Below are positions 7,914 to 37,559 of a DNA stretch of 41,827 bases, in pieces (position 1 is the stretch's first letter; each line of letters begins with the position of its first letter). The DNA comes from Oscillospiraceae bacterium. Lineage in GTDB: Bacteria; Bacillota; Clostridia; Oscillospirales; UBA929. A program made the position numbers and the translations under genes. The stretch is taken from contig JAIRTA010000060.1 of assembly GCA_031255175.1 (NCBI GenBank), positions 1 to 41,827 of the forward strand, read 5' to 3'. The notes below the pieces were generated by a model, which saw only the letters and a list, made by a program, of their open reading frames with translations, was not told where the DNA came from and made no database searches.

Positions 7914-7957
7914 TCAAGAAGAAGCGGAGAGCGTTTGCGCTCTCCGCTTCTTCTTGA
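7914..7957. terminator. Two-way terminator between groEL and the dehydrogenase
   Basis: A 20-bp perfect stem (left arm 7914-7933, right arm 7938-7957) encloses the four-base loop TTTG. The right arm ends CTTCTTCTTG and the left arm mirrors this, so a U/C-rich tail emerges on both strands. It separates the convergent groEL and dehydrogenase genes, so it should serve both. Confidence 0.85.
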
Positions 7958-31464: not shown

Positions 31465-31821
31465 GGGGGCGTACCGGTTTCGACGGGGATGGCCAGTCGA
31501 GATAAGCGGGTCGTGGGGCCGAACCACGATAAAAGCGGGCTTTATAAATCAAAGAACAACAACAACGACTACGCTTTGGCGTACGCGGCCTAACTAAAGG
31601 CCGCCGTCCCGCCCGGGAGGACCACGAACCGGGATGTGGGCGTGACTCAGTGGTGCACATGACCGCGGTAAGCTTTGCCCGCGGCAGGTAACATGAAGCT
31701 ACCAAGTCGCACAGCCTGACAGCCGGCGGCGCGGCAAGGGAATGTAAACGACTGTCTGCACCCGGAGAAAGTCTCGATGAACTGTTTTCGGACAGGGGTT
31801 CAACTCCCCTCGCCTCCACCA
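31465..31821 (+). ncRNA. ssrA: tmRNA (SsrA), single-chain
   Basis: A 357-base transfer-messenger RNA that rescues stalled ribosomes. The 5' end GGGGGCGTACCGGTTTCGAC is diagnostic, and its first seven bases pair with CGCCTCC before the encoded ACCA at 31818-31821. The T-arm AGGGGTTCAACTCCCCT stands near the 3' end. The tag-coding frame reads SKNNNNDYALAYAA before the stop at 31591-31593; the exact resume codon (about 31546-31552) is uncertain. Most tags end in ALAA; here the end is ALAYAA. Its partner smpB lies just upstream, and an intrinsic terminator follows. Confidence 0.97.
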
Positions 31822-31831
31822 GACAAAAATC

Positions 31832-31860
31832 GCGGCAGGACGCGAATCCTGCCGCTTTTT
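31832..31860 (+). terminator. Intrinsic terminator of ssrA
   Basis: GCGGCAGGA (31832-31840) pairs with TCCTGCCGC (31847-31855), followed by TTTTT (31856-31860) and preceded by AAAAA. This is a textbook rho-independent terminator ten bases after the tmRNA CCA end. Confidence 0.95.
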
Positions 31861-31904
31861 ACTTTGACGAACAACACATTTTACAACACACTTTTTCAGA
31901 GTTC

Positions 31905-31913
31905 TGCTATAAC
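31905..31913 (+). promoter_or_regulatory. Extended -10 promoter candidate before the YhcG-like nuclease
   Basis: TGCTATAAC is an extended -10 element in an AT-rich stretch; no good -35 hexamer is seen at 17 bases. A start near 31920 would put both 26-bp palindromes inside the 5' leader. Confidence 0.4.
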
Positions 31914-31930
31914 GACCATAAATTGTTTCT

Positions 31931-31992
31931 AATTACGACCGCGCGCGGTCGTAATTGGCAATATCAAATTGCGTCCATGCGCGGTCGCAATT
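31931..31992. repeat. Two related 26-bp palindromes before the YhcG-like nuclease
   Basis: 31931-31956 is a perfect 26-bp palindrome (arms AATTACGACC and GGTCGTAATT around GCGCGC). 31967-31992 is a second, imperfect copy (AATTGCG ... CGCAATT), identical to the first at 21 of 26 positions and itself paired at 10 of 13 positions. Start-to-start distance is 36 bp, and the nuclease ATG lies 15 bases after the second copy. They could be operators, RNA hairpins in the leader, or REP-like elements. Confidence 0.85.
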
Positions 31993-32006
31993 GAAGGGTA
32001 AGCATT

Positions 32007-33029
32007 ATGAGTGAGCTGCAAAAAACGAATCCTGCGTTTTACACCGATATGCGGCACATTATCATTGAAGCGCAAAGAACCGCCGTTCGCGGTGCTGAGT
32101 ATGTGCGGATGATGATGTATTGGCATCTTGGCGAACGTATTTTCGTCGAAGAGCAGCACGGCAACAACCGCGCCGCATACGGCGAATACACGTTAAACAA
32201 TCTTGCGAAGCGGCTCGAAGCTGAATTTGGCAGTGGGTTTTCAAAAAGACAGCTTGAGCGCGCCCGTTTGTTTTATCGTGTTTATCCGACTGAAAGCAAT
32301 TTGCGAAAACAACTGAACTGGTTGCAGTATCGATTGCTTTCAAGTATTGACGATGATTACAAGCGTGAATATTATGAGCTTGAAGCGGCGAATCACGGAT
32401 GGACGGGCCGTGAGCTTGAACGGCAGATAAATTCCCTGCTCTATGAGCGGTTGTTGCTCAGCAATGACAAGGAAGCCGTGCTTGCCGTAGCCCGCAAGGA
32501 ACGCATACCCGAGAAGCCTGCTGAGATTGTTAAAGATCCAATGTTTTTGGAATTTCTTGGGCTGAAGCGCGAAGCGCCTTACTATGAGAATGACATAGAA
32601 TCCGCATTAATCACTCATTTACAGGAATTCCTGCTTGAACTCGGCAACGGGTTTTCGTTCATTGCAAGACAGAAGCGGTTATTGCTTGAAGATGACGAAT
32701 TTTTCGCAGATATGGTCATGTATAACCGACTGCTCCGTTGCTTCGTAGTGATTGAAATCAAGACACATAAAATGACACATGCAGATATCGGACAGCTCCA
32801 AATGTACGTCAATTACTTTGACAGGTTCGAGAAGTTGCCGGACGAAAATCCAACGGTTGGCATATTGCTCTGCACAGCGAAGAATGATCTGCTCGCAAAA
32901 ATTACTCTGCCGGAGGATAACACAAATATCCTGACCAGCAAGTATGAACTATACTTACCAACTGAGAATGAATTGATAGAGGAAATTAAAGAGGTTATGG
33001 ACCTTGCGGAAGGTGAGATTCAAGAATGA
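32007..33029 (+). CDS. YhcG/DUF1016-family PDDEXK nuclease
   Basis: Predicted DNA endonuclease of the YhcG family, 340 residues. The N-terminal DUF1016 helical domain (about 15-160) shows YWHLGERIFVEEQ, AAYGEYTLNNLAKRLEAEFG and GFSKRQLERARLFYRVYP. The C-terminal PDDEXK domain (about 175-330) holds D235 in DDEFFADMVMYN and the E250-I-K252 pair in FVVIEIKTHKMTHADIGQLQ, so the catalytic set looks intact. Base composition is clearly more AT-rich than the neighbouring genes, suggesting acquisition. Members are often found in accessory regions and near restriction systems, but the cellular role is not established. It overlaps the next ORF by four bases, and a palindrome pair stands directly upstream. 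The ribosome site (GAAGGG at 31993-31998) is acceptable. Confidence 0.9.
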   Translation: MSELQKTNPAFYTDMRHIIIEAQRTAVRGAEYVRMMMYWHLGERIFVEEQHGNNRAAYGEYTLNNLAKRLEAEFGSGFSKRQLERARLFYRVYPTESNLRKQLNWLQYRLLSSIDDDYKREYYELEAANHGWTGRELERQINSLLYERLLLSNDKEAVLAVARKERIPEKPAEIVKDPMFLEFLGLKREAPYYENDIESALITHLQEFLLELGNGFSFIARQKRLLLEDDEFFADMVMYNRLLRCFVVIEIKTHKMTHADIGQLQMYVNYFDRFEKLPDENPTVGILLCTAKNDLLAKITLPEDNTNILTSKYELYLPTENELIEEIKEVMDLAEGEIQE

Positions 33030-33385
33030 ACGAAGCCGTTATAAAGTCAGGCAAAGACGTGCCAGCGGACGCTTTCCCGGATAATGCGATGTGTCACAGG
33101 GAGTGGCTTGAAAACTTGCTGATCTCCATGATTTTCTTTCCGAATGAGCAAATGAACAACTTAAAGACGGAAATTCGTGAAAGCCATTCCGTTGTGTTTC
33201 CGATATGCTTAGGGCATCCATACAGCGATGTCCTCAGAGAATGGGTGAGAGGTTCGTCGCACCCCTTTGGTGCAGACGGGGTGCATGGACTGCACACGGG
33301 TGCGCATGCCGATGAATATGCCGCTGGTCGGATTGTATTCTTTTCTGAGGCTATTGCCAAGGAGCGTGCAATCCGAACTCTTTAA
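33026..33385 (+). CDS. Small unknown protein coupled to the nuclease gene
   Basis: A 119-residue ORF whose ATG overlaps the nuclease stop (ATGA), suggesting translational coupling. No family was recognised. The first ~60 residues look like an ordinary soluble protein (AMCHREWLENLLISMIFFPN, NNLKTEIRESHSVVFP). From about base 33190 the DNA becomes rich in overlapping inverted repeats (GCACCCC 33259-33265 with GGGGTGC 33278-33284; GCACC with GGTGC 33269-33273), and the coded sequence there (HPFGADGVHGLHTGAHADE) is low in hydrophobic residues. The second half may be non-coding sequence joined by a lost stop. It could be a truncated partner of the nuclease. Confidence that it is expressed as drawn is limited. 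Confidence 0.4.
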   Translation: MNEAVIKSGKDVPADAFPDNAMCHREWLENLLISMIFFPNEQMNNLKTEIRESHSVVFPICLGHPYSDVLREWVRGSSHPFGADGVHGLHTGAHADEYAAGRIVFFSEAIAKERAIRTL

Positions 33386-33589
33386 TCCCCATTGGGGAGG
33401 GGTTTGGATTCTTCTTGTACGCCGTGTCACCTAAATATTTACAAATCGCCGGTCTTTTTTTCGCCATACTACGTTGGCGGAAAAAATCCACGTCGCTTTA
33501 TGACAAGATTTAGATGGCACGGCGCACTTGTATCCGATAGGGGTTTAGCCACATGGCCATTGGTGAGAGAATACGGAGAATTTTGCCCT

Positions 33590-34309
33590 ATGACTGACCT
33601 GACAGACAATCTTGATGCCCTGCACACGACCGAACTGGGCGCGGAGCGGATAAAGCGCAACCTCGGCCTGCAAGTTGACGATGTTGTTTTGTGGTGCAAG
33701 GAAACCATAAGACAGGCCGACATCATCATCAGAAATGGAAAAAACTGGTATGCTTACCGAAAAGGCGTGGCCATCACCATAAACGCCCGAAGCAATACGC
33801 TTATCACCGCCCACCCGATCGACGCAAAGGTTCGTGTTATGCGTGAATCAGAATACCCGTGTTTGCGCGAATTCCTCTATCAAGCGGTTTTCATTCCGGA
33901 AGGCGCAAAACCGCCGCCGCGGAGCATCGTAAATGATCCGGAAATATTCCTCTACATCAAAGATTTCGGAACGGGTCCCGGAGACATTGGCGTTGTCGCC
34001 GAACAGGACAGACAGACAATCGGCGCGGCATGGACACGGATCATTCCCGCCTACGGCCATGTGGATTCCGAAACGCCCGAACTCGCCGTCTCTATCTTGC
34101 CGGCATTTCGGGGTTACGGCATCGGCACGAAGTTGATGAACAAGCTGTTTGCGGTGCTGCGTGAAAATGGATACGCAAGGACTTCGCTGTCCGTCCAAAA
34201 AGGCAATCCGGCCGTTCGCTTCTATCAGCGACTTGGATACAGAGTTATAGACGACAAACCCAACAGCGCCGGGCACGAGGATTGCATCATGATCAAGGAC
34301 TTGGGGTGA
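33590..34309 (+). CDS. DUF3781-GNAT acetyltransferase fusion
   Basis: A 239-residue protein joining two families. Residues 1-82 match the DUF3781 pattern (LDALHTTELGAERIKRNLGL, DDVVLWCKETI, GKNWYAYRKGVAITINARSN, LITAHP). Residues 83-239 are a GNAT N-acetyltransferase, with the acetyl-CoA loop in FRGYGIGTKLMNKLF, SLSVQKGNPAVRFYQRLGY and a C-terminal beta strand. DUF3781 proteins are normally small and free-standing. The ATG at 33590 was chosen because DUF3781 begins there and GGAG lies upstream; the frame is open 66 codons further but unrelated to either family. Substrate unknown. The 204-base gap before it holds no recognised element. It belongs to the AT-richer block, although less extreme than the nuclease gene. 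Confidence 0.85.
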   Translation: MTDLTDNLDALHTTELGAERIKRNLGLQVDDVVLWCKETIRQADIIIRNGKNWYAYRKGVAITINARSNTLITAHPIDAKVRVMRESEYPCLREFLYQAVFIPEGAKPPPRSIVNDPEIFLYIKDFGTGPGDIGVVAEQDRQTIGAAWTRIIPAYGHVDSETPELAVSILPAFRGYGIGTKLMNKLFAVLRENGYARTSLSVQKGNPAVRFYQRLGYRVIDDKPNSAGHEDCIMIKDLG

Positions 34310-34439
34310 AGCGTGCGGCCGGCTTGCTATTTTGCCGGCCATGACGCGAAACTGCCGGTGCACACCCCTCGACGGCAGGGCTGTGCGTTGTATCATTTGA
34401 GGCGGACATGCGATTTATCCCCGCAAGGAGGAATGAGCA

Positions 34440-35441
34440 ATGGACGACGGCGACCGGAATAAGATCATCCTCTATCAAGATAAAAACGGCCTCACAAAGG
34501 TATCGGTGCGTTTTTCTGATGAGGATTTGTGGCTGACGCAGGTTCAGATGGCTGCGGTTTATGATACCACGCAGCAGAACATCGACCAGCATATCAAAAA
34601 CATCTATGCGGATGGGGAACTGACGCCGGAGTCAACCTACAAGAAATTCTTGTTAGTTCGAACCGAAGGGAAACGGCAAGTAAATCGCAACATCGACCAC
34701 TACAACCTCGATATGATCATCGCTCTCGGATACCGCGTCCAGTCGCAGATAGCCACGCGGTTCCGACGCTGGGCGACCGAGCGGCTGCACGAGTATATTC
34801 AAAAGGGCTTCAGCATGGACGACGAGCGGCTGGGGCAAGGGGGCTCCCGCTATTTCCGGGAGCTGCTGCAGCGCATCAGGGACATCCGCAGCAGCGAGCG
34901 CAATTTCTATCAACAGGTGACGGACATCTATGCCACGGCCACGGACTACAACCCCCGCGCGGACATGACGAGAAAGTTCTTTGCCACTGTGCAGAACAAG
35001 CTGCACTTTGCGGTGCATGAACATACAGCCGCCGAGCTTATCTACGACAGAGTTGACAACGAAAAACCGCTGGTGGGGATGACCAACTTCAAAGGCGACT
35101 ACGTAACCAAGGACGATGTGAAGATAGCCAAGAACTATCTGTCTGAGATAGAACTCACACGGCTCAATCTGCTTGTGTCCCAGTTTCTCGACTTTGCCGA
35201 GTTCCAGGCACTGGAGCAAAATCCCATGACGATGGCGGATTGGATTGCGTCTTTGGACAGCCAGATATTGGCACTGAAAAGAAAGCTGCTCACAGACAGC
35301 GGCGCTGTCTCACATAAACAGGCGATGGAAAAGGCGGAGCGCGAATTTGAAATATACCGGGTGCGGGAAATGAAACAGCTTGAGAGCGACTTCGACAAAG
35401 CGGTCAAGTTGCTCTCGCTGGCTGAGGACGATAGGCGATGA
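34440..35441 (+). CDS. RhuM-family protein
   Basis: A 333-residue protein of the RhuM (virulence RhuM) family, widespread in accessory regions and of unproven function. The N-terminal DNA-binding-like segment is typical: DEDLWLTQVQMAAVYDTTQQ, NIDQHIKNIYADGEL, then NIDHYNLDMIIALGYRVQSQ and FRRWATERLHEYIQKGFSMD. The middle has FYQQVTDIYATATDYNPRA and FFATVQNKLHFAVHEHTAAE; the C-terminal part is helical and charged. AAGGAGGA stands before the ATG. It closes the accessory block behind ssrA. RhuM genes are often seen near restriction-modification genes, which are not present here. Confidence 0.9.
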   Translation: MDDGDRNKIILYQDKNGLTKVSVRFSDEDLWLTQVQMAAVYDTTQQNIDQHIKNIYADGELTPESTYKKFLLVRTEGKRQVNRNIDHYNLDMIIALGYRVQSQIATRFRRWATERLHEYIQKGFSMDDERLGQGGSRYFRELLQRIRDIRSSERNFYQQVTDIYATATDYNPRADMTRKFFATVQNKLHFAVHEHTAAELIYDRVDNEKPLVGMTNFKGDYVTKDDVKIAKNYLSEIELTRLNLLVSQFLDFAEFQALEQNPMTMADWIASLDSQILALKRKLLTDSGAVSHKQAMEKAEREFEIYRVREMKQLESDFDKAVKLLSLAEDDRR

Positions 35442-35505
35442 TACCCATCTCCGCATTCGGGCGCCGCCCGTCTCTGCGGCCAAAAATATAAAAGTGTTGA
35501 AATTA

Positions 35506-35534
35506 CTGAAAAAAGTGATAGGATATGATATAAT
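35506..35534 (+). promoter_or_regulatory. Promoter of the GH13 gene
   Basis: CTGAAA (35506-35511), a 17-base spacer and TATAAT (35529-35534), with TGA directly before the -10 (extended -10). It stands in the 186-base gap after the RhuM gene and leads to a leader of about 85 bases. Confidence 0.75.
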
Positions 35535-35627
35535 AGGCGCGAAGGCGCTGTGGGGCACTGTCCCGCGCCGGTTTTTCGCAAAATTTGGGGTGTGGCACCT
35601 CGTACTATCTGCCAAAGGGGGTTTTGC

Positions 35628-37559
35628 GTGTCTCTCATGTCTTTTTATGATGCCCGCGACAGCGCTTACAAAGACCCGTTCGGAGCGGTGACTGCGGGGA
35701 CAGACGTCTCCCTCTCCATCCGTGTGCCCCGCGCGCAGGCTGTTTCTCACGCCTTTTTGTGCGTGTCTTTTGAATTTGACCGGGAGAGCGCGGAGATTCT
35801 GATGGACTGGTGCGGGCTGGACAGGGACGAGGACGTCTACCGCGCCGTACTGCCGACCACGGGGCGGCTGGGCCCCGTGTGGTACCGGTTTCGCGTGGAG
35901 CGTTTCGACCGCTCCGACCTTCACATCGGCGTGAACACCGAGACAATGGACGGCAAGGGCATATCCTCAGAGGAGATTTTGCCTCCGTTTCAACTCACTG
36001 TATATGATGAGGCGCTTTTTGTGCCCGATTGGTACGGGCGTGGGATCACCTACCACATCTTCCCCGACCGCTTCCGCCGCACCGACGTCCCCGACCCGGC
36101 CGGCCTTGTGGGCCGGCGCGTGGTGCACGAGGACTGGGACGACGTGCCGGACTTCAAGCCGGACGAGCACGGCGAGATCCACAACCGGGATTTTTTCGGC
36201 GGCTCGCTGGCGGGCGTGCGGGAAAAGCTGCCCTACCTCGCCTCCCTCGGCGTCACGACGCTGTATTTCAGCCCGATCTTCGAGGCGGCCTCAAACCACC
36301 GCTACGACACCGCCGACTACAAGCGCGTCGATCCCATGTTCGGCTCGACGGAGGCCTTTTCGGAACTGTGCCGCGCGGCGCGCGCGCTGGACATACGTGT
36401 GATGCTCGACGGCGTATTTAACCACACGGGCTTCGACTCCCGCTACTTCAACGGCCGCGGGACCTACGACGAGGTCGGCGCCTTCCAATCGAAGGAGTCC
36501 CCCTACTACAACTGGTATGACTTTCAGGAGTGGCCGCACCGCTACGCCTCCTGGTGGGGCATCTACACGCTGCCGCAGGTGAACGAGTCGAACTCCGATT
36601 ATCTCAAGTACATCATAGAAGACGACGACAGCGTGATCCGCCACTGGCTGCGGGCGGGCGCTTCGGCCTGGCGGCTGGATGTGGCCGACGAACTGCCGGA
36701 CGATTTTTTGGTCCGTCTGCGCGCCGCGGCGCGGGCGGAGGCGGCGGACGCCGTCATCATCGGCGAGGTCTGGGAGGACGCCTCCCACAAGACCGCCTAC
36801 GGGGTGCGCCGCCGCTACCTGCTGGGGCACGAGCTGGACGGTGTGATGAACTACCCCTTCCGCAACGCGCTGCTCGGATACCTGCTGGGCGGAGACGCGG
36901 TGCGCTTTCGGTGCGAGATGGAGACGCTGCGCGAAAATTACCCGGCGCCGGTCTTTTACAGCCTGATGAACATTGTCGGCACGCATGACACACCCCGCGC
37001 GCTGACGGTCCTCGGCGTGGACGAGAGCCTGTACGGCCGACCGCGCGAGGAGCGCGCCGCGTACACGCTACCGCCCGAGCGGTATGCGCGCGCGTGCGCG
37101 CGCCTCAAGCTGGCCTCGCTCATCCAGTACGCCTTTCCGGGCTCACCCTGCGTCTACTACGGGGACGAGGCCGGGATGGAGGGGTTTGAAGACCCCTTCA
37201 ACCGCCGCGGGTTCCCCTGGGACCGGGAGGACGCGTCCCTCACCTCGTGGTACACGGCGCTCGGCGCGTGCCGGCGCCGCCACGAGGCCTTGCAGAGCGG
37301 AGCGCTCTCCTACTTGCAGGCCGAGGGGCCGCTGCTGGCCTTTGCGCGCACCGCGCCGGGGGAATACCTGGCGGCGGTGACAAACCGCGCCGAGACGGCT
37401 TGCCCCTGTTCCCTGCCCTGGCCGGCCGCCGCCGCCCGCGATCTGCTGAGCGGCGAGGTCTTCACGGCGCGGGACGGGGTCGTCTCTCCGGCAATGGGCC
37501 CCTTGCGGGGGCGCCTGCTGCTGGCCGAACCCGGCGCGGCCGGCGGCCGCTCCGGCTGA
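35628..37559 (+). CDS. GH13 cyclomaltodextrinase/neopullulanase-type glucanohydrolase
   Basis: Hydrolyses alpha-1,4-glucosidic bonds in maltodextrins, cyclodextrins or pullulan, probably in the cytoplasm because no signal peptide is present. It has 643 residues. The GTG at 35628 sits six bases after AAAGGGGG; an ATG three codons later is the alternative. An N-terminal beta-domain of about 130 residues precedes the (beta/alpha)8 barrel, which starts GITYHIFPDRFRRTDVPD. Conserved regions are LDGVFNHTGFDSRYF, WRLDVADEL with nucleophile D351, IGEVWED with acid/base E380, and NIVGTHDTPRALT with D454. YADEAG-type FPGSPCVYYGDEAG follows. It is a single gene with its own promoter; the usual sugar-transport partners are absent. 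Exact specificity cannot be told. Confidence 0.92.
   Translation: MSLMSFYDARDSAYKDPFGAVTAGTDVSLSIRVPRAQAVSHAFLCVSFEFDRESAEILMDWCGLDRDEDVYRAVLPTTGRLGPVWYRFRVERFDRSDLHIGVNTETMDGKGISSEEILPPFQLTVYDEALFVPDWYGRGITYHIFPDRFRRTDVPDPAGLVGRRVVHEDWDDVPDFKPDEHGEIHNRDFFGGSLAGVREKLPYLASLGVTTLYFSPIFEAASNHRYDTADYKRVDPMFGSTEAFSELCRAARALDIRVMLDGVFNHTGFDSRYFNGRGTYDEVGAFQSKESPYYNWYDFQEWPHRYASWWGIYTLPQVNESNSDYLKYIIEDDDSVIRHWLRAGASAWRLDVADELPDDFLVRLRAAARAEAADAVIIGEVWEDASHKTAYGVRRRYLLGHELDGVMNYPFRNALLGYLLGGDAVRFRCEMETLRENYPAPVFYSLMNIVGTHDTPRALTVLGVDESLYGRPREERAAYTLPPERYARACARLKLASLIQYAFPGSPCVYYGDEAGMEGFEDPFNRRGFPWDREDASLTSWYTALGACRRRHEALQSGALSYLQAEGPLLAFARTAPGEYLAAVTNRAETACPCSLPWPAAAARDLLSGEVFTARDGVVSPAMGPLRGRLLLAEPGAAGGRSG

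Follow-up and report, generated by a model that had tools for sequence, protein, structure and literature searches.

In the window, the 41,827-nt stretch of an Oscillospiraceae contig (JAIRTA010000060.1) analysed here, two palindromes stand directly before a gene encoding a YhcG/DUF1016 nuclease, and these palindromes are local copies of an element that is found throughout the YhcG family. Computational comparison of the family established the palindrome itself, its conservation at the DNA level, the covariation of its arms with a predicted DNA-reading helix of the encoded protein, and the fit of the window copies to the resulting code. From these patterns we infer physical binding, dimerisation, and autorepression by YhcG. 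Thus, the window palindromes are probably paired cognate sites of YhcG, the local form of a cis site carried family-wide, at which a bound dimer would lower transcription of its own gene.

The YhcG/DUF1016 nucleases are a widespread family that occurs in most Escherichia coli genomes and on many plasmids. To our knowledge, no function or solved structure has been described for it, nor any target since the nuclease prediction of 2005. If the proposed reading is true, the recognition sequence can be taken from each yhcG gene itself and three bases follow from three residues, so that specificity would be directly testable and perhaps reprogrammable. The family would also provide a natural record of joint change in protein and DNA specificity.

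The yhcG leader in the window

The features of the locus, in window coordinates, are as follows.

31832-31855, forward strand: ssrA intrinsic terminator, which sets yhcG apart from the gene 5′ of it
31908-31913, forward strand: possible -10 box (TATAAC) of the yhcG promoter, 5′ of the palindromes, read by eye
31931-31956: palindrome copy 1, a perfect 26-bp dyad (13+13), AATTACGACCGCGCGCGGTCGTAATT; predicted YhcG site in the leader
31967-31992: palindrome copy 2, imperfect, AATTGCGTCCATGCGCGGTCGCAATT; second predicted YhcG site
31993-31998, forward strand: GAAGGG, probably the Shine-Dalgarno sequence, located after copy 2 and before the ATG; from the sequence
32007-33029, forward strand: yhcG, 340 aa, with DUF1016_N and PD-(D/E)XK nuclease domains (Pfam PF17761, PF06250)
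32175-32282, forward strand: codons of residues 57-92, a predicted helix-turn-helix (HTH; helices 57-74 and 80-92; AlphaFold2)
32247-32261, forward strand: codons of R81, Q82, L83, E84, and R85, where the recognition helix begins; covariation involves R81, E84, and R85
32289-32315, forward strand: codons 95-103, the usual place of the coding palindrome in relatives; no palindrome here
32709-32762, forward strand: nuclease motif D235 ... E250-I-K252, intact

The original prediction of a perfect 26-bp dyad and a 21/26-identical copy, 36 bp apart and preceding an intact nuclease gene, is borne out. Copy 2 matches copy 1 at 21 of 26 positions, the two lie 36 bp apart from start to start, and 14 bases separate copy 2 from the yhcG ATG at 32007. 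The tmRNA gene (ssrA) lies upstream at 31465-31821 and has its own terminator at 31832-31855, so the leader palindromes are not that terminator. The TATAAC -10 box is tentative, since it was read by eye and is absent from the output of the consensus scan. A degenerate palindrome pattern gave no match in 100 dinucleotide shuffles of the window; in the 2.5-Mb genome it was found at the window locus only, and allowing two mismatches added a single unrelated-looking site. Scattering of the palindromes through the genome, which had been named as grounds for rejecting a link to YhcG, was therefore not what the genome search found. A DNA similarity search with the leader against plasmids and E. coli returned nothing relevant, and scans of viral contigs with patterns for the window palindrome and two others returned only unrelated or already known sites.

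The window protein matches both the C-terminal YhcG PD-(D/E)XK domain (PF06250; E 2e-53, 180.7 bits against a cut-off of 32.5) and DUF1016_N (PF17761; E 2e-34, 119.2 bits against 32.8), and with both domains and the E-D-ExK motif it belongs to the YhcG family (COG4804). D235 and K252 are invariant in alignments of 16 and 49 sequences. PADLOC assigns the protein to a candidate family, PDC-S02. YhcG was predicted to be a nuclease with an E-D-ExK active-site motif by Kosinski et al. (2005; PMC1189080), where the N-terminal domain was of unknown role. A sequence search for relatives of YhcG with solved structures found none. Two further yhcG genes, with differing coding palindromes, occur in the same genome (L023, G000:C109; L030, G000:C90).

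Downstream, a 119-aa open reading frame (ORF; 33026-33385), which overlaps the stop codon of yhcG (ATGA), was matched by nothing in Pfam, PADLOC, or NCBIfam; it might encode a partner of YhcG. Next, at 33392-35441, come a DUF3781/GNAT gene and a RhuM gene (PADLOC candidate PDC-S05). Beside ssrA, yhcG and the GNAT and RhuM genes thus make up a small defence-like cluster, the PADLOC families being candidates. Neither an integrase nor a repeated tmRNA 3′ end, the mark of an integrated island, was seen in 31700-36500, and no inverted repeats were seen around the GNAT and RhuM genes. Elsewhere in the window, a perfect inverted repeat with 20-bp arms lies at 7914-7957 (TCAAGAAGAAGCGGAGAGCG-TTTG-CGCTCTCCGCTTCTTCTTGA), with no T run directly after it.

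The palindromic element across the YhcG family

The family sample comprised approximately 170 yhcG genes, for which the window protein and contigs of viral and metagenome-assembled origin served as seeds, and start codons were estimated. Nearly every gene carries a coding palindrome of 21-39 bp near nt 255, in Bacillota, Bacteroidota, Pseudomonadota, and others. A 27-bp dyad occurs within the coding sequence of 138 of 166 sampled genes, represented by 132 distinct 27-mers and always in one frame; it is located at codons 83-94, nearly always 86-92. Examples include ATTGCGAACGCACTGCGTTCGCAAT (L004), ATTCGGCAGACAGTGTCTGCCGAAT (L218), and AATTGTGCAGACAGTGTCTGCACAATT (L020). The ends (AATT) and the centre of the palindromes are conserved. 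Most of the other genes without a dyad at the main site have one that is shifted within the coding sequence, of even length, or imperfect, and in four genes (L145, L163, L072, and L080) the coding palindrome lies near nt 152, about 100 nt earlier than in most.

Leader palindromes are present in some relatives (L005, AATTACGAACGCACGCGTTCGCAATT; L003, L013, L008, L029, and others) and absent from most. Between the leader of L005 and the coding sequences of its relatives L004, L006, and L148 the palindrome is almost unchanged, which indicates that one element occurs in both places. In the window gene, L003, and L005 the coding palindrome has been lost and leader copies are present instead, and several relatives retain both. 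Conservation upstream of homologues, which the original prediction had expected, thus holds for a minority of leaders, most homologues carrying the element in their coding sequence. A survey confined to upstream regions, with coding copies outside its scope, scored 11 of 168 yhcG leaders at 9 compared with 4 of 281 control genes. Taking a lack of conservation upstream of close homologues as a refutation would have misled, because most homologues hold the element within the gene.

The element is constrained as DNA. Palindrome scores of at least 10 were reached by 101 of 164 real genes compared with 29 of 3280 synonymous-codon shuffles, and scores of at least 12 by 70 of 164 compared with 3 of 3280; centre selection and thresholds favour palindromes by construction, a bias that does not affect the codon-shuffle control. 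Arm positions ±3 to ±8 are 92-100% Watson-Crick paired, using several pair types. On the protein tree, each position from ±3 to ±9 underwent 20-46 changes of pair state; within ±3 to ±8 the figure is 20-38, and the two arms changed about equally often there. Among 53 independent sister pairs, 113 positions had changed on both sides and 68 on one. Arm mismatches comprise 9 G.T, 21 A.C, and 43 others. Since shuffled genes fail to reproduce the palindrome, and since the arms change in a compensatory manner without an excess of G-U pairs, the constraint acts on double-stranded DNA.

Paralogues within one genome differ in their palindrome arms, and in one genome (G006) L013 and L028 share 84% of their DNA, including promoter and start, while their leaders are fully different and equally palindromic; the yhcG gene of L028 is truncated. 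A generic Bacteroidota pattern found six sites in 118 genomes, three of them within yhcG genes. Of the remainder, two are not dyads in the middle and one (L239; G676:C82:27752-27776) is a YhcG-type quasi-palindrome, ATTGTGCGGACACTGTCGGCACAAT, outside any recognisable yhcG, which may be a relic, another target, or a chance occurrence.

E. coli offers a within-species view, with a yhcG match in 4,420 of 5,426 genomes and the palindrome family at the yhcG locus only. The K-12 gene (L146) holds three coding palindromes in tandem at 39-40 bp spacing and one just past the stop codon (record positions 3368129-3368236 and 3368970-3368994). The O157 and O111 alleles have one coding copy and one after the stop, and other alleles two and one. 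Copy number of the tandem in-frame array thus varies among strains (L146, L230, L236); the O157:H7 and O111 alleles, about 80 bp shorter at the array, are annotated as frameshifted. Between alleles whose flanks are identical, the palindrome past the stop codon shows a symmetric double change. K-12, which has K81, carries C(-7), and the other main allele (R81, W84, Q85) carries G(-7), T(-8), and A(-5) at the first coding copy.

Covariation of the palindrome arms with the recognition helix

Outside the palindrome's own codons, the strongest residue-base coupling in the family joins residue 81 with base -7. R81 occurs with G(-7) in 54 of 55 genes, compared with 8 of 61 that lack R81, the best of 19,025 residue-by-base tests. 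K81 is found with C(-7) (8/8) and T81 with T(-7) (8/11). Two further positions behave likewise: E84 pairs with C(-8) in 13 of 13 cases and Y, W, or G84 with T(-8) in 25 of 25, and R85 accompanies C or T(-5) in 22 of 23 cases and Y, N, L, Q, or F85 accompanies A(-5) in 72 of 76. Residues 81, 84, and 85 are spaced as i, i+3, and i+4 where the second helix begins.

Shared ancestry was addressed with phylogenetically independent contrasts on a tree built without the HTH region. These were 13 concordant and none discordant for R81 and G(-7), and 7:0, 5:0, 12:0, 6:0, and 7:0 for the other residue-base pairs, which were never discordant. With so few contrasts, no single one among 19,025 tests passes the Bonferroni threshold, and the case for covariation rests on the pattern of all contrast tests together. 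Base -7 falls on the third position of a codon. Where that codon is four-fold degenerate, G accompanies R81 in 39 of 40 genes and other residues in 7 of 38, and among valine codons alone GTG is used in 18 of 18 genes with R81 and 0 of 9 without it. As the coupling persists at four-fold degenerate third positions, it is not a coupling between amino acids. Similarity of helices 57-92 also tracks arm similarity beyond overall relatedness (partial r 0.29), and similarity of the nuclease domain does not (-0.02).

The code was derived with the window gene, L003, and L005, which have no coding copy, left out. The window protein (R81, E84, R85) faces G(-7), C(-8), and C(-5) in all half-sites. Copy 1 has the half-site AATT-ACGACC, in which C(-8), G(-7), and C(-5) match the code for E84, R81, and R85, and copy 2 has AATT-GCGTCC and AATT-GCGACC, both of which obey it. 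The leaders of L005 (R, E, L; bases G, C, A) and L003 (R, A, Y; bases G and A) are likewise as predicted. For eight fresh plasmid genes, drawn from six phyla, the code gave the right base at 17 of 21 scorable positions. Exceptions are the coding copy of L013, with G(-7) and S81, the extra E. coli copies, with C(-7) and R81, and L245, in which two of three bases were missed. Since the letters of the arms shift with the residues of the putative DNA-reading helix, the nuclease very probably recognises its own gene.

AlphaFold2 models place the HTH at residues 57-92. Compared with solved structures, the N-terminal domain has ParB, Noc, Spo0J, and SopB DNA-binding domains in its first 13 rows (Z 4.8-8.0; Foldseek E ~1.5), followed by unrelated structures at Z 4.4 and below. 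Given that a Z of ~8 is middling for helical domains and that the Foldseek E is ~1.5, the ParB-like match is suggestive and no proof. The C-terminal nuclease domain resembles the DNA endonuclease EndoMS/NucS (Z 12.7).

Proposed role, alternatives, and known systems

It is proposed that the YhcG family carries its site in cis, mostly in frame and right after the codons of the recognition helix, and that in the window gene and two relatives a leader site has taken the place of the vanished coding site. YhcG would act as a symmetric dimer in which the N-terminal part of helix 80-92 of each subunit reads one half-site, with R81 contacting G at -7, E84 contacting C at -8, and R85 contacting the base pair at -5. 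In the window, where its predicted sites lie between promoter and start codon, YhcG most likely reduces transcription of its own gene, which would restrain a potentially harmful, defence-type nuclease. With the pair placed 3′ of the probable promoter and 5′ of the ribosome-binding site, autorepression is the simplest reading. In relatives, the site in the coding sequence could serve as a roadblock or, with several copies, form a loop. The original suggestion of an operator pair or of the nuclease's own target has thus gained support from the covariation of the recognition helix and from the window copies, with autoregulation following as an inference. Several points weigh against this explanation: an operator would be unusually placed some 270 nt into a coding sequence, the match to known structures (Z 8.0) is modest, sites deviate from the code in L013, L245, and the extra E. 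coli copies, several relatives keep both coding and leader palindromes, and the window promoter was read by eye.

A role beyond mere repression is a doubtful extension, in which YhcG would be a self-addressed nuclease acting on rival or invading copies with a matching address, or policing its own copy. If so, protein specificity and address would evolve together inside one reading frame. It is also unlikely that the palindrome is a target for cleavage or nicking by YhcG, with a function in spread or gene conversion, or in competition among elements that bear yhcG, in place of regulation. The intact nuclease motif, the EndoMS/NucS-like C-terminal domain, the varying number of sites among E. coli alleles, and the presence of yhcG on plasmids and viral contigs would fit such a role. 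However, yhcG is stable on chromosomes despite carrying the site, as its frequency in E. coli illustrates, making constitutive cutting unlikely, and a search for mobile-element boundaries and other insertion sites found none. Because genomes hold site and nuclease together, any cutting of the site must be conditional.

Reading of the dyad by shape, as an extruded cruciform or DNA hairpin resembling a Holliday junction, is very unlikely. The arms are long and perfect, and the nuclease domain was found closest to YraN-like Holliday-junction resolvases (Kosinski et al., 2005; PMC1189080), but the base-specific covariation with the helix, together with conservation of the centre and of the AATT ends, suggests that duplex DNA is read by its sequence. 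Binding by another host or partner regulator, with covariation reflecting shared ancestry only, would accord with arms that also track overall protein relatedness (Spearman 0.29); the 13 to 0 contrasts for R81 and G, the lack of discordance for the other pairs, and the difference in partial correlation between helices and nuclease domain make it highly improbable.

RNA hairpins in the messenger, among the meanings originally offered, are barely credible: although the window copies lie directly 5′ of the ribosome-binding site and the leader is folded somewhat more stably than its shuffles (z -2.7), G-U pairs are not in excess among the arm mismatches, tmRNA is the sole Rfam family in the window and none matches in eight yhcG loci, and most members carry the element in the coding sequence, where it covaries with the HTH. 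Insertion by chance of a dispersed selfish palindrome, whether REP-like as first suggested or of the Rickettsia coding type, is effectively refuted by the single-locus distribution in the window genome and E. coli, by the one homologous position and frame across phyla, and by covariation with the host protein, even though in-frame coding palindromes are known (RPE, cited in PMC4316617; PARCEL, PMC2996958).

The autorecognition proposed for YhcG has its closest parallels in ParB-parS and Noc-NBS, where an HTH domain, of a fold that YhcG may share by prediction, binds its palindrome as a symmetric pair. One Bacillus subtilis parS lies inside the spo0J/parB gene. In ParB and Noc, residues of the recognition helix set base preference (PMC7383237), and covariation suggests that YhcG likewise reads a cognate palindrome with its recognition helix. 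Unlike ParB and Noc, YhcG bears a PD-(D/E)XK nuclease, each yhcG has its own arm sequence, and nearly every member has a site in cis. No Pfam match to the ParB/Srx-type N-terminal CTPase domain was found in the window YhcG at E 0.001; with that domain missing and the rest of the protein being the YhcG nuclease domain, YhcG is not a ParB family member.

HTH regulators, including the controller proteins of restriction-modification systems, use paired palindromic autoregulatory operators between promoter and start codon. The window locus shares with them the paired leader palindromes, and the family the paralogue-specific sequences, but in YhcG the regulator would be the nuclease itself and the site is mostly in frame within the coding sequence. 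Translation of palindromic DNA in frame is shared with Rickettsia palindromic elements and PARCEL. However, the former are dispersed among many genes, whereas the YhcG element occupies one homologous position, and PARCEL consists of tandem 25-residue repeats in surface-type proteins (PMC2996958); the YhcG palindrome differs from both in belonging to one family and covarying with its own reader. As in REP/RAYT, a nuclease-type gene is flanked by palindromes, but REPs are high-copy and dispersed, whereas the window palindromes are two leader copies in 2.5 Mb. No Y1 transposase (RAYT) was found beside them, the neighbours being YhcG, the 119-aa ORF, DUF3781/GNAT, and RhuM.

None of the openly accessible papers found for DUF1016 or YhcG describes the palindrome, and within the same scope the E. 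coli core sequence was not found in a relevant context. Autorecognition of a palindrome by an HTH protein is of a known kind. Its embedding in frame within the reader's own gene across phyla appears undescribed and would, if true, be an unusual instance of a protein-binding site kept in frame in the gene of the protein that reads it.
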